From assembly GCF_018332695.1 (NCBI RefSeq), contig NZ_BOQN01000100.1, positions 1-64,000 on the forward strand: a DNA stretch of 64,000 bases. The letters run 5' to 3'. The notes beneath the pieces are model-generated. The model worked only from the letters and a program-made list of their open reading frames with translations, was not told the origin of the DNA and ran no database searches. A program made the position numbers and the translations under genes. Of this stretch, positions 19,531 through 28,987 are shown piece after piece (position 1 is the first letter of the stretch; each line of letters begins with the position of its first letter). The stretch comes from Paractinoplanes toevensis (lineage in GTDB: Bacteria > Actinomycetota > Actinomycetes > Mycobacteriales > Micromonosporaceae).

Positions 19531-20517
19531 ATGACGCTCACCAGCACGTCGGCCAGGGTAAAACCGGCGCGGCGGGCCACCCGTACGGCGCTGATGGCTT
19601 TTCTGGTCTTTCCCGGTCTGCTCTGGGCGCTCATCCGGTTGTTCGGCCAGGAACGCGGCCCGCTGGTGCAGTTGCTGGCCTACACGCCCTACGTGGCGGT
19701 GTGGGCGTGGGTGCCGGTGGTGATCGCGCTGCGGGCCCGGAAATGGCCGGTCGGCGCGGCCGCCGTGCTCGCCGCGCTGGTGCTGGCGGTGTGCGTGGTG
19801 CCGCGGGCCCTGCCGAATGCCGACCGCGGACCGGCCACCGGGGTCCGGGTGACCGTCATGACGATCAACATGTTCCTCGGCGACGCCGACCCGGCCGCGG
19901 TGGTCGAGCTGGTCCGGGACCACGACGTGGCCGTGCTGGCCGTGCAGGAGTTCTCGCCCGACGCCCGGAACGGCCTGACCGCGGCCGGCCTGGACACGCT
20001 GCTGCCCTATCACTCGCTCGCCGACGAGTGGGGCGCGACCGGGTCCGGCGTCTACTCCCGGTTCCCGGTCAGCGCGGCCGGTTCGACCCGGGCCAAGGGC
20101 AACAACCAGCAGGCGTACGCGACGGTGCAGCCACCCGGTGGCACGGCTCTGGCCGTGCAGTCGGCGCATCCGCTCGCGCCGTACGCCGTCTCGGCGCTCG
20201 GCGACTGGCGGGCGGACATCGAGGCGGAACCGGTCCCCGACGGCGGCCGGCCCCGCATCCTGCTCGGCGACTTCAACTCGACCCTCGACCACGCGCCGAT
20301 CCGCGACCTGATCGGGCGGGGCTACCGGGACGCCGCAGACACCGTCGGCAAAGGGCTGGTGCCCACCTGGGGGCCGTGGGAGCACCACCTGCCGCCGGTG
20401 ACGCTGGACCACGTGCTGGTCGACGAGCGGATCGGGGTGCGGGACGTGTCGGTACACGGCGTGACCGGGAGTGATCACCGGGCGGTGATCGCGACGCTGA
20501 CCGTGCCGACGGCGTGA
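19531..20517 (+). CDS. membrane-anchored endonuclease/exonuclease/phosphatase family protein (copy 1)
   Basis: 328 aa. Residues ~20-100 contain two or three hydrophobic segments (ALMAFLVFPGLLWALI, VLAALVLAVCVVPRAL). The rest is an EEP (DNase I-like) domain, with MTINMFLGDADP, the metal-binding Glu in LAVQEFSPDA, RILLGDFNSTLDHAP, and the C-terminal catalytic SDHRAVIATL. Members cleave phosphodiesters or phosphomonoesters outside the membrane. It is followed by a paralogue with the same layout, so the pair is a tandem duplication. Confidence 0.88.
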   Translation: MTLTSTSARVKPARRATRTALMAFLVFPGLLWALIRLFGQERGPLVQLLAYTPYVAVWAWVPVVIALRARKWPVGAAAVLAALVLAVCVVPRALPNADRGPATGVRVTVMTINMFLGDADPAAVVELVRDHDVAVLAVQEFSPDARNGLTAAGLDTLLPYHSLADEWGATGSGVYSRFPVSAAGSTRAKGNNQQAYATVQPPGGTALAVQSAHPLAPYAVSALGDWRADIEAEPVPDGGRPRILLGDFNSTLDHAPIRDLIGRGYRDAADTVGKGLVPTWGPWEHHLPPVTLDHVLVDERIGVRDVSVHGVTGSDHRAVIATLTVPTA

Positions 20518-20581
20518 CCGGGTTGTGCAGAACTCGTGATGACGGCTCGTAAGCTGGCCGAACGCGGCTAGCCTCGCCAAC

Positions 20582-21583
20582 ATGAAGATCATCGGCCAGG
20601 CGGCGGTCACTCAGCCTGAGGTCACACCGAAGCCGCGACGCAAAGTAGTAGGCGTGATGCTCTGGATTCTGGTGATACCGGCGGCGGTGTGGGCGGTGGC
20701 CCGGCTCAGCGGGTCGGAACGCGGGCCGCTGGTGCCGTTCATGGCCTTCACGCCGTACGTTGCCGGTTGGAGCCTGCTGCCCGCCGTGCTCGCCGTCGCC
20801 GGGCGGCGCTGGACCACCGCCGTGGCCGCGGCGATCGTGATGCTGGTTTTCGCGGCACTTGTCCTGCCCCGCGCCCGCACCGGTGATCAAGGGCCGTCCG
20901 CGGGCGTCGCGCTGCACGTGATGACCAGCAACATGCTCGCCGGCGGCGCCGACCCGGCCACCATCGTCCAGCTGGTCCGGGACAACGACGTGGCGGTGCT
21001 GGCCGTGCAGGAGTTCACCCCGGCCGCGCGACAGGCGCTGACCGGCGCCGGGCTCGATCAGCTCCTGCCCTATGCCTCGCTCGCCGACACGGTGGGGGTC
21101 GCCGGCTCCGGCCTCTACTCGCGCTTCCCGGTCACCGGGGCAGGCTGGAAACAGAACGGCGGCGGCTTCCGGCAGGCGTACGCGACGATCCAGCCGCCCG
21201 GCGCCGGACCATTGGTGATCGAGTCGGCGCACCCGGTGGCACCCTCATCCGCGGAGCGCATCCGGGCCTGGCGCGCCGACCTTGCCGCCGAACCCGAAGC
21301 CGACCCGAACGGCCCGCCCCGCATCCTGCTCGGCGACTTCAACTCCACCCTCGACCACCGCTCGCTGCGCGACCTGATCGCCACCGGCTATCGGGACGCC
21401 GCCGACGCGACCGGCAAGGGCCTGGTCACCACCTGGCCGTACTACGGGCCCCACATCCCCCGGGTGACCATCGACCACGTGCTGGTCGACCGCCGGATCG
21501 GCGTACGCGAAACAAGCGCGCACCGGATCCCCCGCAGCGACCACCGCGCCCTGATCGCCACCCTCACCGTGCCGGCGGCATGA
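20582..21583 (+). CDS. membrane-anchored endonuclease/exonuclease/phosphatase family protein (copy 2)
   Basis: 333-aa paralogue of the preceding protein. It has the same N-terminal membrane segments (VVGVMLWILVIPAAVWAV) and EEP motifs (MTSNMLAGGADPATI, LAVQEFTPAA, RILLGDFNSTLDHRS, SDHRALIATL). The copies align end to end and share many identical blocks, so they arose by tandem duplication. They have diverged in the loop after YSRFPV, where copy 2 is rich in Gly and Asn. The stop overlaps the start of the GNAT remnant (ATGA), so the lost acetyltransferase was once coupled to it. Confidence 0.88.
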   Translation: MKIIGQAAVTQPEVTPKPRRKVVGVMLWILVIPAAVWAVARLSGSERGPLVPFMAFTPYVAGWSLLPAVLAVAGRRWTTAVAAAIVMLVFAALVLPRARTGDQGPSAGVALHVMTSNMLAGGADPATIVQLVRDNDVAVLAVQEFTPAARQALTGAGLDQLLPYASLADTVGVAGSGLYSRFPVTGAGWKQNGGGFRQAYATIQPPGAGPLVIESAHPVAPSSAERIRAWRADLAAEPEADPNGPPRILLGDFNSTLDHRSLRDLIATGYRDAADATGKGLVTTWPYYGPHIPRVTIDHVLVDRRIGVRETSAHRIPRSDHRALIATLTVPAA

Positions 21584-22198: not shown

Positions 22199-22741
22199 TC
22201 AATCGGTCGTCCTGTACATGCCGATCCACTTCCGTAGGCGCTCCAGTACGAGCGGGTGGACCTCGACCATTTCAATGCGGTCCGCGATAGTCACCGGGTC
22301 GATGAGACCTTCGCGAATGAGGGCGTGAGCGAAGGCGTAATCCTTCTCTCGCCCGGCTACCAGCTTCGAGACCACGCAGTCATGCGGGTCGAGCGTGTAT
22401 CCGCGTCCGGGCCGAGTGCTCTGCGACTCGACGAGGACCAATCGATCCCGCCACCGGTCGGGCAGGGTCGCGGTGGTCACGCTGACTCCCTGGGCGTAGT
22501 AGCCGTTCATCTCGTGGAACGGCGACAGCTCGCCGATGGCGCCGTCGACCTGATCGGCCTTCCGGTCACCCGGATCGTCGAAGAAGGCCACATCGACCTC
22601 CATTGAAGCGGTGGCCTCCAGCGGCAGGCGTTCCTCAGGGATCGAGCCCAGCACCGACTGGCTGCCGATGACGAGCACGTTCGGGTCGTCGGCGATCTGG
22701 CATGCGGCTCGCAGTACATGCTCGAGCTGGTCACGCCTCAC
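22199..22741 (-). CDS. nucleotidyltransferase-like protein (DUF6036-type), second gene of a coupled pair
   Basis: 180 aa. The N-terminal half looks like a polymerase-beta-type nucleotidyltransferase core: VLVIGSQSVLGSIPEE supplies the GS motif, and ASMEVDVAFFDDP the acidic strand. Later come TLDPHDCVVSKLVAGREKDYAFAHALI and a C-terminal RLRKWIGMY. This layout resembles the DUF6036 family, often found next to small HTH genes and compared with nucleotidyltransferase toxins such as AbiEii or MNT. Start GTG overlaps the upstream stop by 4 bp (GTGA). Enzymatic activity and toxicity are unproven. Confidence 0.78.
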   Translation of the reverse strand: MRRDQLEHVLRAACQIADDPNVLVIGSQSVLGSIPEERLPLEATASMEVDVAFFDDPGDRKADQVDGAIGELSPFHEMNGYYAQGVSVTTATLPDRWRDRLVLVESQSTRPGRGYTLDPHDCVVSKLVAGREKDYAFAHALIREGLIDPVTIADRIEMVEVHPLVLERLRKWIGMYRTTD

Positions 22742-23238
22742 GCTGCCCGTCCCGCTCCGCTGTGTGCGAAGGCGGCAAGCACCTTTCGACGCTGCTCCTG
22801 AGGAAGCACCCCGGCGAACGGCGAATTCTGCCGGAGTTCGAGAGACTCGGGATCTTCGGAGGTAAGTGCCCTGAGGACAGCACCGGGGCCCTCATCGATC
22901 CTTTCCTGCCATCGCGTCAGCCAGACTTCAGCCATCGTGTTGCGGTGGAGCTGCAGAAGCCGATCCAGATTTTCGCTGGCTTTGGCCAACACAAGGTCGG
23001 GATCGGCGACCAGGTTGCCGGCCACTGCCTGATGCAGCCAGAGCGACTTGAGCTGGTCGCGCGTGAGTTTCGGCTGAGGGTGCAGGAACGCCTCCACCTG
23101 GCGCCGTTCAACTCGCCGATGCTTGCCGACTTTGACGAAGGGCAGGTCTCCACGCTCGCACAGGTTCACGACCTGCTGACGGGACACACCCAGCAGGTCG
23201 GCCACCTGGCCGGTAGTCAAGAACTGACCTGACGTCAC
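22738..23238 (-). CDS. excisionase-type helix-turn-helix protein, first gene of a coupled pair
   Basis: 166 aa. The N-terminal part is an excisionase/MerR-like winged helix: FLTTGQVADLLGVSRQQVVNLCERGDLPFVKVGKHRRV. The rest (~60-166) is helical and of unknown fold (KLTRDQLKSLWLHQAVAGNLV, RRKVLAAFAHSGAGRA). I start at GTG 23238 (VTSGQFL), just downstream of an AT-rich patch suited to a promoter. A longer reading is open but has no family-like sequence. With the nucleotidyltransferase it forms a two-gene operon, divergent from the threonine-leader/ThrRS gene. Antitoxin-like role inferred from architecture only. Confidence 0.78.
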   Translation of the reverse strand: MTSGQFLTTGQVADLLGVSRQQVVNLCERGDLPFVKVGKHRRVERRQVEAFLHPQPKLTRDQLKSLWLHQAVAGNLVADPDLVLAKASENLDRLLQLHRNTMAEVWLTRWQERIDEGPGAVLRALTSEDPESLELRQNSPFAGVLPQEQRRKVLAAFAHSGAGRAA

Positions 23239-23328: not shown

Positions 23329-23334
23329 TAGCAT
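23329..23334 (+). promoter_or_regulatory. -10 element for the leaderless threonine leader peptide
   Basis: TAGCAT lies exactly 7 nt before the leader ATG at 23342, the spacing expected when transcription starts at or next to the start codon. No good -35 is visible. Confidence 0.45.
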
Positions 23335-23341
23335 CGGGGGC

Positions 23342-23398
23342 ATGATGCGCAGGTTCGTGACGACGACGCCGGTTTTTCCCGGCGTTGATTCTCGCTGA
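23342..23398 (+). CDS. threonine-codon leader peptide upstream of the short ThrRS
   Basis: 18-codon frame MMRRFVTTTPVFPGVDSR, then TGA 23396-23398. Residues 7-9 are three consecutive ACG threonine codons (23360-23368). It precedes a threonyl-tRNA synthetase gene by 71 bp. A hairpin (CGCCGG 23367-23372 with CCGGCG 23379-23384) begins within the last Thr codon, and further competing hairpins lie between this stop and the synthetase start. A ribosome short of charged tRNA-Thr would pause here, as in classical amino-acid attenuators. Too short for similarity evidence; the support is codon content, position and RNA folding. Confidence 0.68.
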   Translation: MMRRFVTTTPVFPGVDSR

Positions 23399-23409
23399 CC
23401 TGACAGCGA

Positions 23410-23467
23410 CCACACCGGGCGAGATGCCCGGGTGTGGGGTCTCGCCCTCATTTCCCAGGGAGACCCC
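23410..23467 (+). promoter_or_regulatory. mutually exclusive leader hairpins controlling the short ThrRS
   Basis: Three pairings compete. A: 23410-23420 with 23426-23437 (CCACAC-CGGGC stem, one bulge). B: GGGGTCTC 23436-23443 with GAGACCCC 23460-23467, which buries the ribosome site AGGGAG (23457-23462). C: GGGCGAGA 23417-23424 with TCTCGCCC 23440-23447, incompatible with A and B. C would free the ribosome site. No U-run follows A, so control of translation looks likelier than transcription termination. Confidence 0.6.
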
Positions 23468-23469
23468 AG

Positions 23470-24672
23470 ATGTCTGTCGACCATCGCAAGCTCGGGCGTG
23501 AGCTCGACCTCTTCGACTCCGATCCGCTCATCGGCGCGGGGCTGCCGTTCTGGCTTCCGGCCGGGGCCGCCGCGCGCCACGCGGTCGAGTCCTACCTGTA
23601 CGAGTTGGAACGGCGCAACGGTTATCAGCACGTGCACTCCCCCGCCCTTGGCAAACGCCAGATGTACGAGATGTCGGGGCACTGGCAGAACTTCTCCGAG
23701 GACATGTTTCCGCCGATGCGGCTCGGTGGCGACGAGCTGGTGCTGCGGCCCAGCCAGTGTCCGCATCACGCGCTCATCTTCAAGGCGCGGCAACGGTCGT
23801 ACCGTGATTTGCCGTTGCGGATCGCCGAGGTCGGGCCGATGTACCGGGCCGAGCGCTCCGGTGTGCTCGGCGGGCTCGCCCGGGTGCGGTCGATTCAGCT
23901 CGACGACGCGCACAACTTCTGCGCCCTTGACCAGGTGGGCGACGAGGTTGCCGCGGTGCTGCGGTTGATGCGTGTCTCCCATGCCGCGCTCGGCTTCGAG
24001 CCGTCGTCTTTTCGGCTTTCGTTGCGCGGTGACAGCGGAAAGTATGCCGGTGGGGACGCCATGTGGGCACGGGCCGAAAGCCTCTTGCGGGGTGCTCTCG
24101 GCGCCGAGGGCATCGAGTTCGAGGCGGTGCCGGGCGAGGCCGCCTTCTACGGGCCGAAGATCGATGTGCAGATCGAGGACTCGGCCGGCCGGGAGTGGAG
24201 CCTCGCCACCATTCAGATCGACTTCCACCAGCCGGCCCAGTTCGACCTGTCCTACGCGGCGGCGGACGGCGGGCGGGAACGGCCGGTCATGGTGCACCAG
24301 AGCCTGATCGGCTCGATGGAACGGCTCTTCGGGCACCTGATCGAGGTGCACCAGGGCGCCTTCCCGGTCTGGTACGCGCCGGTGCAGATCGACGTGCTGC
24401 CGCTCGGCGCGGGCCAGGCCGACGCGGCGCGCGCCTTCGCCGCCGCGGCCGTCCGGGCCGGGCTCCGGGCCGAGGTGCACGAGGAGGGCTCGCTCGGCGC
24501 GCGCATCAGATCGGCGGCCGAGCGCAAAATCCCGTACGCCGGAATCGTCGGCGAGCGGGAGGTCGCGGACGGCCTGATCGCTCTCCGCCTGCGGGACGGA
24601 GGTCAGGTGCCGCCGATGCCGCAGGCAGAGGCGATCGCGATGATCGCCTCTGCCGGCCGGCCCGAGCTCTAG
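23470..24672 (+). CDS. thrS: short threonyl-tRNA synthetase lacking TGS and editing domains
   Basis: 400-aa class II synthetase, about 250 residues shorter than housekeeping ThrRS. It begins directly at the catalytic core, so the N-terminal TGS and editing domains are absent. The zinc ligands are kept: Cys97 in SQCPHHALIF, His148 in QLDDAHNFC, and the His in MVHQSLIGSMERLFGHL. Motif 2 (YRAERSGVLGGLARVR) and motif 3 regions and an anticodon-binding domain (EVHEEGSLGARIRSAAERK) follow. Start ATG 23470 has AGGGAG 7 nt upstream, inside a hairpin. Likely a second ThrRS; in other actinobacteria extra ThrRS copies confer resistance to ThrRS inhibitors or act under threonine stress (inference here). 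Its stop shares CTAG with the convergent cimA. Confidence 0.9.
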   Translation: MSVDHRKLGRELDLFDSDPLIGAGLPFWLPAGAAARHAVESYLYELERRNGYQHVHSPALGKRQMYEMSGHWQNFSEDMFPPMRLGGDELVLRPSQCPHHALIFKARQRSYRDLPLRIAEVGPMYRAERSGVLGGLARVRSIQLDDAHNFCALDQVGDEVAAVLRLMRVSHAALGFEPSSFRLSLRGDSGKYAGGDAMWARAESLLRGALGAEGIEFEAVPGEAAFYGPKIDVQIEDSAGREWSLATIQIDFHQPAQFDLSYAAADGGRERPVMVHQSLIGSMERLFGHLIEVHQGAFPVWYAPVQIDVLPLGAGQADAARAFAAAAVRAGLRAEVHEEGSLGARIRSAAERKIPYAGIVGEREVADGLIALRLRDGGQVPPMPQAEAIAMIASAGRPEL

Positions 24673-26255
24673 GCCGCCGCGGTCGTGCGGGCCAGGCCGT
24701 AGGTGAGGGCGTCCACCAGGGCGACCCAGCTGGCCTCGACGATGTTCTCGTGCACGCCGACGGTGGTCCAGTCGCGGTTGCCGTCGGCGCTCTCCAACAG
24801 CACCCGGGTGACCGCGTTGGTGCCGTGGCTGCCCTCCAGGATGCGCACCTTGTAGTCGGTCAGTTCGACGGTCTTGAGCTGCGGGTAGTGCTGCGACAGT
24901 GCTACCCGCAGGGCCTCATCGAGGGCGTTGACCGGGCCGTTGCCCTCGGCCGTCGCGATCACCCGCTCGCCGCGGACCCGCACCTTGACGGTCGCCTCGG
25001 AGACCACCGCGCCGTCCTCACGATGCTCGACCTGCACCCGGTAGGACTCGAGGTTGAACGGGCGGGCGTAGCCCTCGCCCGGCAGCTCGCCGCGCACCAG
25101 CAACTCGAACGAGGCGTCCGCGGCCTCGAACGACCAGCCGCCGGCCTCCAGCTCCTTGACCTTCCGGGTGACGGCCGAGACCGCGTCCGGGTGGCCGGCC
25201 AGGTCCAGGCCGAGCTCGCGACTCTTGAGCTCGATGCTGGCCCGGCCGGCCATCTCCGTCACCAGGATCCGCATGTCATTGCCGACAACCGACGGGTCGA
25301 CGTGGTTGTAGAGCAGCGGATCCACCTTGATCGCGCTCGCGTGCAACCCCGCCTTGTGAGCGAAAGCCGCGGCCCCGACGTAGGCCTGGTGGGTGTCGGG
25401 GGCGATGTTGGCGATCTCGGCGAGCGCGGTGGAAACCCGCGTCGCCTGTTCGAGGCAGCCGTCCGGTAGGACCTGAACCCCGAGCTTGAGCTGTACGTTG
25501 CTGACCGTGGCGAACAGGTCGGCGTTGCCGGGCCGCTCGCCGTACCCGTTGGCGGTGCACTGGAAGTGCTTCACGCCGGCCTCGACGGCCGCGATCGTGT
25601 TGGCGACCGCGCAGGACGTGTCGTTCTGGCAGTGGATGCCGAGCCGGTCGGCGCTGACGCCGGTGCGCGCGACAACCTCCTCGATCGCCTTGGTGATCAT
25701 CGACGGGAGCATGCCGCCGTTGGTGTCGCACATCACGACCCGCTCGGCGCCGGCTTCGAAAGCCGCCAACACCACCGAAGCGGTGTACGCCGGGTCGTAG
25801 CGGAAGCCGTCGAAGAAGTGCTCGCAGTCGACGAACGCGCGCCGGCCGTTCTCCTTCAGGAACCGGACGGTGTCCCGGACCATCGCCAGGTTCTCGTCGC
25901 CGGTGGTGCGCAGCGCCCGCTCCACGTGCCGGATGTCCGACTTGGCGACCACGCAGACAACCGGGGTCTCCGCGTCGAGCAACGCCTTGACCTGCTTGTC
26001 CTCCTCGACGGCGACGCCCGCCTTGCGGGTCGCGCCGAACGCCACGAGCAGCGCGTTCTTGAGGTCCAGCTCGGTTTTCGCCCGTTCGAAGAACTCGGTG
26101 TCCTTGGGCATGGCACCGGGCCACCCGCCCTCGATGAAGCCCACCCCGAACTCGTCCAGCAGCTTCGCGACCGCGAGCTTGTCGGCAACCGAGTAGCTGA
26201 TGCCCTCGCGCTGCCCGCCGTCGCGCAGCGTGGTGTCGAAAACCTGGTAGTCCAT
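24669..26255 (-). CDS. cimA: (R)-citramalate synthase
   Basis: 528-aa DRE-TIM metallolyase that condenses acetyl-CoA with pyruvate to citramalate, the threonine-independent entry to isoleucine. Visible: FDTTLRDGGQREGISYSV (metal-binding Asp and catalytic Arg), GIHCQNDTSCAVANT (HxN-type metal region), FQCTANGYGERPGNADL, and a C-terminal LeuA-type allosteric domain (RPFNLESYRVQVEHRE). The start ATG has GGGAG upstream, and an in-frame extension is unlike the family. LeuCD and LeuB in this window catalyse the next citramalate steps as well as the leucine ones. Upstream lies a leader peptide with a terminator. Isopropylmalate and homocitrate synthases are relatives, but the N-terminus fits the citramalate group best. 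Confidence 0.9.
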   Translation of the reverse strand: MDYQVFDTTLRDGGQREGISYSVADKLAVAKLLDEFGVGFIEGGWPGAMPKDTEFFERAKTELDLKNALLVAFGATRKAGVAVEEDKQVKALLDAETPVVCVVAKSDIRHVERALRTTGDENLAMVRDTVRFLKENGRRAFVDCEHFFDGFRYDPAYTASVVLAAFEAGAERVVMCDTNGGMLPSMITKAIEEVVARTGVSADRLGIHCQNDTSCAVANTIAAVEAGVKHFQCTANGYGERPGNADLFATVSNVQLKLGVQVLPDGCLEQATRVSTALAEIANIAPDTHQAYVGAAAFAHKAGLHASAIKVDPLLYNHVDPSVVGNDMRILVTEMAGRASIELKSRELGLDLAGHPDAVSAVTRKVKELEAGGWSFEAADASFELLVRGELPGEGYARPFNLESYRVQVEHREDGAVVSEATVKVRVRGERVIATAEGNGPVNALDEALRVALSQHYPQLKTVELTDYKVRILEGSHGTNAVTRVLLESADGNRDWTTVGVHENIVEASWVALVDALTYGLARTTAAA

Positions 26256-26295
26256 GGGGGAGCTCCCTTTCCGAGGATGGTTTGGCGGGCCCAAC

Positions 26296-26324
26296 AAAAA
26301 GACCCCCCGCGGATGCGGGAGGTC
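26296..26324 (-). terminator. attenuator terminator upstream of cimA
   Basis: Minus-strand hairpin 26301-26324: a 10-bp GC-rich stem with one G-U pair and an ATCC loop, followed by five T residues (26296-26300). It lies 41 nt before the cimA start and ~30 nt after the leader-peptide stop, where an attenuator should be. Confidence 0.85.

Positions 26325-27889: not shown

Positions 27890-28987
<1,098 letters not shown>

Follow-up and report, generated by a model that had tools for sequence, protein, structure and literature searches.

A conserved threonine-codon leader with mutually exclusive downstream helices, a probable attenuator, in front of a short, editing-less threonyl-tRNA synthetase gene of actinobacteria

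The short threonyl-tRNA synthetase (ThrRS) gene of Paractinoplanes toevensis is preceded by a small leader frame with three consecutive threonine codons, and sequence comparison shows that this leader element is strongly conserved and present in many soil actinobacteria. We consider it probable (roughly 0.8) that the element is a ribosome-mediated attenuator, through which expression of an auxiliary, editing-less ThrRS would follow the supply of charged Thr-tRNA. Control by Thr-tRNA is suggested by the conserved anatomy and by analogy. The comparison shows a conserved frame with conserved Thr codons, coevolution of two helices (P3 and P4) and a T-rich tail behind a third one (P2).

The window (the whole stretch of 64,000 nucleotides that was analysed) carries the leader frame MMRRFVTTTPVFPGVDSR at positions 23342-23398 of the forward strand (18 codons plus stop; the start is at 23342 or 23345), with three consecutive ACG codons at 23360-23368. 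A -10 hexamer, TAGCAT (23329-23334), ends 7 nt 5' of the first leader ATG, a distance suggesting that the leader mRNA is leaderless or nearly so. The Shine-Dalgarno (SD) sequence AGGGAG (23457-23462) and the short thrS gene (23470-24672, ATG at 23470) follow on the same strand. The frame with its ACG codons and the hexamer 7 nt before the ATG had been proposed in the initial annotation, and both were found in place. Among the 347 small ATG starts of the window (frames of 8-40 codons on both strands, nested starts counted) a run of three threonines occurred in three, all nested in the leader frame, and a TANNNT box at leaderless spacing in two, the Thr leader being one of them. The minimum free energy (MFE) of the segment 23340-23480 was -69.6 kcal/mol, compared with -51.95 (sd 4.23) for 200 shuffled sequences, none of which reached as low a value.

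The 400 aa product of the short gene has catalytic and anticodon-binding domains only. Pfam detected just tRNA-synt_2b and HGTP_anticodon, that is, a class II core and an anticodon domain, the second additional (editing) domain being absent, in agreement with the earlier description of the enzyme as editing-less. The protein matched TIGR00418 (thrS) with 433.5 bits (cut-off 383.65). The other ThrRS of the genome is 659 aa long, has the tRNA_SAD (editing) domain and is 42% identical to the short form over the shared part. The closest named relatives of the short ThrRS are those of Paractinoplanes tereljensis (93%), P. durhamensis (89%) and P. ferrugineus (83%), and the genome belongs to the Actinoplanes group. 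Of 60 genomes sampled in the genus, 52 have the short gene (53 matches at E 1e-100, one of which, G049, was a full-length enzyme), and 182 of 250 genomes in the family sample had a match at 1e-110. In 77 short-ThrRS loci (three duplicates included) the protein measured 388-418 aa from the start of the match to the stop. The Cys and first His motifs, which we take to be zinc ligands, were present by pattern in every one of the 77 loci, the second His motif being recognized in 75; since these motifs are kept, the short ThrRS is probably active.

The surroundings of the gene in the window can be described as follows. On the reverse strand, divergent from the leader, a DUF6036 nucleotidyltransferase gene overlaps an excisionase-family HTH gene (22199-23238); the two look like a toxin-antitoxin-type or mobile pair. 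Inspection by eye suggests that L005 and L006, two close relatives, differ from the window in the region that precedes the leader. Downstream, a citramalate synthase gene (24669-26297, reverse strand) converges with thrS, with a 4-base overlap between the frames, and the 3' end of cimA also lies beside thrS in the genus loci L007, L010, L013, L014, L024, L026, L028 and L031. An ilvE gene is located at 27890-28987 (reverse strand). Two adjacent paralogous genes (19531-21583, forward strand) encode proteins of 328 and 333 aa, which by eye look like the endonuclease/exonuclease/phosphatase type; an NCBIfam scan of the second one (333 aa) gave no match.

The leaders of 105 upstream regions were read: 56 of the 57 genes of the window's genus (window included), 39 loci from other genera of the family, which are part of a longer list, and ten named loci (Kutzneria, Amycolatopsis, Nonomuraea, one Nocardia MAG and one Micromonosporaceae MAG). 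Three named Paractinoplanes loci were excluded as duplicates. Thr-Thr-Thr-Pro was present in 99 of the 105 leaders, in 98 by a core pattern and in L046, which the pattern misses though its leader reads TTTP. One leader (L052) has Thr-Thr-Ala; two consecutive Thr codons are present in L011, L012, L100 and L108, and a single one in L061. G015, a gene of the window's genus outside the 105, has MYSSAMTTTPGPPGVESR. The initial annotation had made its proposal depend on conservation of the small frame and its Thr codons in homologues; both are conserved, and a Thr-codon leader before a short ThrRS gene is the best reading of the region.

With 29 gene loci and 18 regions fetched after a search of the class the set grew to 152 regions. 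The last 18 were chosen where gene and element both matched, and are therefore not independent of the element search. The core pattern, which fixes the arms of the leader hairpin P1, was found in 151 regions (149 distinct cores); where it matched more than once (2 loci) the match with the most Thr codons was taken, so that the Thr counts are biased slightly upward. A TANNNT box lay 5-10 nt before an in-frame ATG or GTG in 143 of the 149 distinct cores, with three out of frame and three having none, and the spacer between box and start was 7 nt in 97 and 6 nt in 43 of the 146 cores with such a start. ATG triplets within 45 nt upstream were distributed 183/3/22 over frames 0/1/2, and all 149 cores had an in-frame stop within 60 nt. 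Thr was encoded at codon 1 in 145, at codon 2 in 149 and at codon 3 in 146 of the 149 cores (at all three in 143). At codons 1 and 2, 29 third-position changes were counted versus four changes away from Thr.

CCG follows codon 3 in every one of the 149 cores; codon 3 and this CCG lie inside P1 and are nearly invariant. Such near-invariance would also be expected if ACGACGACGCCGG were retained solely because it forms the 5' arm of P1, the frame being incidental, an explanation that we regard as very improbable: codons 1 and 2 vary mainly at their third positions, and start, -10 box and stop remain in frame despite varying distances. Third-base drift, an in-frame start and stop and the kept threonines together are what characterizes a translated frame under selection for threonine. 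As in attenuators, the 149 cores thus appear to offer a short upstream frame rich in codons for the amino acid of the gene product.

Element and gene were closely linked. In the class sample (296 genomes) there were 51 short thrS genes among the matches listed (56-100% identity, to about E 1e-98) and 52 strong elements, 51 of them at E 1e-6 or better and one (G441) at 3.3e-5. The element was located upstream on the same strand in 50 of the 51 short thrS genes among the matches listed, the distance from its end to the protein match being 31-361 nt in these 50 pairs; the 51st gene (G387), which has no element, is located at the end of a contig, where about 110 nt remain. Counted from the elements, a short thrS followed 50 of the 52 strong ones; of the other two, one (G473) preceded a full-length thrS and one (G466) lay at a contig end. 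In G466 (L126), near the contig end, what follows the element cannot be read as thrS and may be an insertion. In G473 (L171) the leader MARVFWSTTTPGISRRLSLAR precedes a full-length ThrRS gene with editing domain, and no short gene was found in this genome; in both G466 and G473 no ThrRS match at E 1e-20 was detected beyond the full-length one. The element scored 52.8 bits in the G473 region versus at best 12.9 bits (E 0.015) upstream of 20 full-length thrS genes, whose absence of the element is a sample rather than proof because the gene start was confidently readable in only part of them.

This linkage bears on the idea that the signal sensed is an antibiotic or a general disturbance of translation, for example through chloramphenicol-type stalling after Thr, and not Thr-tRNA. 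Stalling by chloramphenicol is described as strongest after Ala, Ser or Thr codons in the available part of PMC12121999. With a short ThrRS gene behind 50 of the 52 strong elements and a full-length one behind one more, however, the match between codons and enzyme would have to be a coincidence, and we consider sensing of this kind improbable.

The element search used an RNA model that has ten pairs only, misplaces P2 and works mostly as a sequence profile. A phylum search gave a match at 1e-5 in 8 of 246 genomes. Five of these were already known; two (G574 and G689) were new, lie outside the class and have the element before a short thrS, and the candidate in G727 was rejected as false. The leader of G689 is MAHLVHVPTTTPERSGVHV, and the base of its P1 is paired with other letters. 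In the class sample five genomes with two or three ThrRS matches had no divergent short copy, all their matches being in frames of at least 642 aa. Weaker matches of the element, at E 1e-5 to 1e-3, also occurred in the class sample. Four genomes of one genus (G289, G396, G465 and G506) contain two or three ThrRS genes, all of them long, in place of a long-short pair; the weak element matches in these genomes are not located beside the genes.

Four helices were delineated on the forward strand of the window, P1, P2 and P4 by MFE folding. P1 (23350-23402) is the hairpin of the leader frame, with a main helix of 23364-23372 paired with 23379-23387. The hairpin noted in the initial annotation thus exists, whereas its start had been put at the last Thr codon and falls, in the MFE structure, slightly earlier, inside the second ACG. 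The P1 segments ACGCCGG and CCCGGCG are conserved in homologues, and the stem base is re-paired with other letters in other groups. P2 (23411-23434; 23411-23413 with 23432-23434 and 23415-23420 with 23426-23431) is a GC-rich, terminator-like hairpin. P3 is formed by GGGCGAGA (23417-23424), which is part of an arm and the loop of P2, and TCTCGCCC (23440-23447), which lies in the linker and overlaps the 5' strand of P4. P4 (23435-23468; 23435-23442 with 23461-23468 and 23445-23448 with 23457-23460) buries the whole SD sequence. The competing hairpins said earlier to extend up to the ThrRS ribosome site could be recognized in the GGGCGAGA/TCTCGCCC helix and the SD-burying MFE helices. Because its strands overlap theirs, P3 cannot coexist with P4 or with the top of P2; the helices are thus mutually exclusive.

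Compensated P3 pairs were seen in homologues (GGGCGAGTG/CACTCGCCC, GGGCGAGCG/CGCTCGCCT, GGCGACCCG/CGGGTCGCC and GGCAACCTG/CGGGTTGCC). When the strands of 134 sequences were paired with their own or with permuted partners, P3 gave -13.71 with its own partner versus -11.13 (sd 0.20) with permuted ones (z -13.0), and P4 gave -13.14 versus -11.10 (sd 0.20; z -10.1); none of 5000 permutations reached the real value in either case. Since relatedness inflates z, the test was repeated with 24 sequences below 70% identity, and z was still -4.9 for P3 and -4.2 for P4 (0 of 10000 permutations). Of the 152 rows, 18 had been dropped: 15 without an SD at the allowed distance from the picked P2, two without core and one duplicate. 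The window itself was among the dropped rows, probably since its P2, which has a bulge, escaped the selection; in an earlier P3 test its own linker had beaten every swapped linker. Earlier P3 tests with 102 and 101 sequences had given z of about -14. The scrambled control of P4 was flat (0.0 to -1.3, n=134). That of P3 was flat with 101 sequences (-2.0 to 0.4) but ranged from -2.4 to -4.0 in the test with 134, thus part of the P3 signal may be due to base composition. Taken across the compared sequences, these results indicate that P3 and P4 coevolve. The SD was at least half paired in 127 of the 134 real folds, versus 81% of folds with shuffled linkers; since shuffled linkers still pair the SD, its pairing as such is only mildly special.

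The behaviour of P2 is relevant to the level at which control would be exerted. It is possible, if tentative, that control operates only at thrS translation, P4 hiding the SD and P3 uncovering it, with P2 as a scaffold (perhaps in a pseudoknot with P3) and not as a terminator. The coevolution of P4 agrees with this, as does a terminator scan of the window, which found no terminator-like site; moreover, thrL of Streptomyces lividans is without a clear terminator in the available part of PMC8079986, and the actinobacterial leuA and ileS leaders are described as pairing at the SD box in that of PMC1262725. Purely translational control is, however, at odds with the T-rich tail after P2 (on average 3.0 T per 9 nt versus 1.1 expected, 149 sequences). 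The presumed antiterminator, the 3' arm of the leader hairpin paired with the 5' arm of P2, showed no coevolution (z +0.8, n=134), both strands being nearly invariant. These arms are complementary, shuffling of the leader arm making their pairing 2.5 kcal/mol weaker, and the extra C of CCCGG is still C in 74 of the 75 sequences where it is unpaired in P1, which fits a second partner.

In the attenuator that we favour, the leaderless mRNA would start at or beside the leader ATG. With plentiful Thr-tRNA the ribosome would pass the Thr codons, P1 would re-form, and P2 would form and end part of the transcription; in read-through transcripts the linker would pair with the SD region (P4), and thrS translation would stay low. 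With Thr-tRNA in short supply the ribosome would stall on the ACG codons, which lie on the 5' side of P1, and block this hairpin. The freed 3' arm (CCCGG) would then disturb P2, and the loop strand of P2 could pair with the linker (P3), taking away the 5' strand of P4 and freeing the SD. Stalling on the Thr codons, service of P2 as a real terminator and an order of events that lets P3 win are the parts of this scheme that we infer.

A switch at equilibrium was considered and rejected. SD accessibility was computed for the free, stalled and stop-codon states and did not differ; opening of the SD cost 7.1 kcal/mol both with the ribosome stalled on the Thr codons and with the ribosome at the stop (equilibrium folding, means of 124). 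Loss of P2, modelled with soft penalties, cost 7.4 kcal/mol when the ribosome was stalled and 5.4 when it was at the stop; stalling lowered this cost by more than 2 kcal/mol in 16 of the 134 sequences and raised it in 58. P2 was thus favoured in all ribosome states and stalling gave no advantage. If the model is right, the decision would consequently be kinetic, made during transcription, or taken through a pseudoknot invisible to the program.

A more specific version of the attenuator is put forward tentatively, as a possibility that we hold with less than even confidence. P3 joins the loop of the terminator-like hairpin to the 5' strand of the SD hairpin, and a single stalled ribosome might thereby relieve both termination and the translation block of a spare ThrRS in many actinobacterial families. 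The element might also move with the job rather than with the gene, as it stands before full-length thrS in one genome where no short gene was found.

As to the enzyme, the likeliest role of the short ThrRS is that of an induced back-up under Thr-tRNA shortage. It might alternatively be a drug-resistant spare, induced when an inhibitor of the borrelidin or obafluorin type hits the housekeeping enzyme, much like the indolmycin-resistant TrpRS of Streptomyces; this would provide a reason for the attenuator and not another mechanism. The genome does contain two divergent ThrRS genes (42% identical), and precedents for SerRS, IleRS and TrpRS are mentioned in the available part of PMC9437257. A glycine has been linked to obafluorin and borrelidin sensitivity (PMC11252418, in part). 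Yet this glycine, which is changed in ObaO resistance, was kept, within AFYGPK, in all 77 short-ThrRS loci (three duplicates among them), and the second ObaO position (Leu489 of E. coli), counted from the glycine, is Q in both copies of the genome. The resistance signature was thus sought in the 77 loci and not found; resistance of the short ThrRS is possible, but we regard the drug-resistant spare as rather unlikely.

A second ThrRS without proofreading domain is kept by many actinomycetes, among which antibiotic producers are common. If this enzyme is switched on only at low Thr-tRNA, cells would give up accuracy in order to survive when threonine is short or ThrRS is inhibited, and the element, if the proposal is true, would be a ready-made reporter for ThrRS inhibitors.

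Among known systems, thrS and thrZ of Bacillus subtilis are two ThrRS genes under T-box control. They resemble the present pair in responding to tRNA-Thr charging, but a T-box binds the tRNA directly and needs no leader peptide. In the window no Rfam family, the T-box included, reached its gathering score except two tRNAs elsewhere, and up to E 5 the only hit was SorX (16.8 bits versus a threshold of 46.6). Judged by its title, a 2010 paper by Vecchione and Sello reportedly deals with an auxiliary, antibiotic-resistant TrpRS gene under ribosome-mediated transcriptional attenuation, said to be trpRS1 of Streptomyces coelicolor. That gene is likewise a spare synthetase gene under ribosome-mediated attenuation, with tryptophan there and threonine here; the TrpRS is antibiotic-resistant, whereas the short ThrRS lacks a resistance signature in the 77 loci.

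For trpS and leuS of Streptomyces, and for pheST of gamma-proteobacteria, classical attenuators upstream of the gene were described in 2005 (PMC1262725, available part). They have, as here, a leader peptide and alternative helices before a synthetase gene; their terminator and antiterminator are described, whereas P2 is only terminator-like. The same survey, in that part, reports no conserved structure for threonine operons. Its LEU element, located before actinobacterial leuA, shares a leader peptide, an alternative or pseudoknotted fold and pairing to the SD box, but in that element the SD box is paired by the amino-acid codons, and here by a separate linker (PMC1262725, available part). A histidine leader precedes hisS in bacilli (PMC2965389, in part), and Anabaena has a second ThrRS, impaired in proofreading, that is induced by low zinc (PMC4787780 and PMC9437257, both in part).

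The initial annotation knew of no described example, but relatives are in print: besides the trpS and leuS attenuators of Streptomyces (PMC1262725), thrL upstream of thrS was listed in 2021 for S. lividans TK24 (SLIV_19412/SLIV_19410; PMC8079986, Table 4). In the open-licence literature this was the only actinobacterial Thr leader before thrS that we found, and no account was found there of the shared architecture, the breadth, P3 or P4. S. lividans thrL, MKRVRPFLETTPGFVPAR, is reported as transcribed leaderless, with termination unclear (PMC8079986, available part). Like the element described here it is leaderless, has Thr-Thr-Pro, ends in VPAR* as many homologues do and stands before a ThrRS gene; it is very probably the same element, and from the likeness of the leaders SLIV_19410 would be the short form of ThrRS. 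The metL leader of S. lividans, assigned to a methionine importer in the same table, shares the TTTPG motif with the Thr leaders and may be misassigned or related to them. In the part of PMC8079986 available, the thrL listing is one row with two threonines, whereas conservation, alternative helices and the SD arm are added here. Already known, then, is the thrL-thrS listing of S. lividans, and added by the present analysis are the breadth of the element, the coevolution, the SD arm and one full-length thrS with the element; the coevolving P3 and P4 give exact pairings for a leader whose termination had been left open in print.
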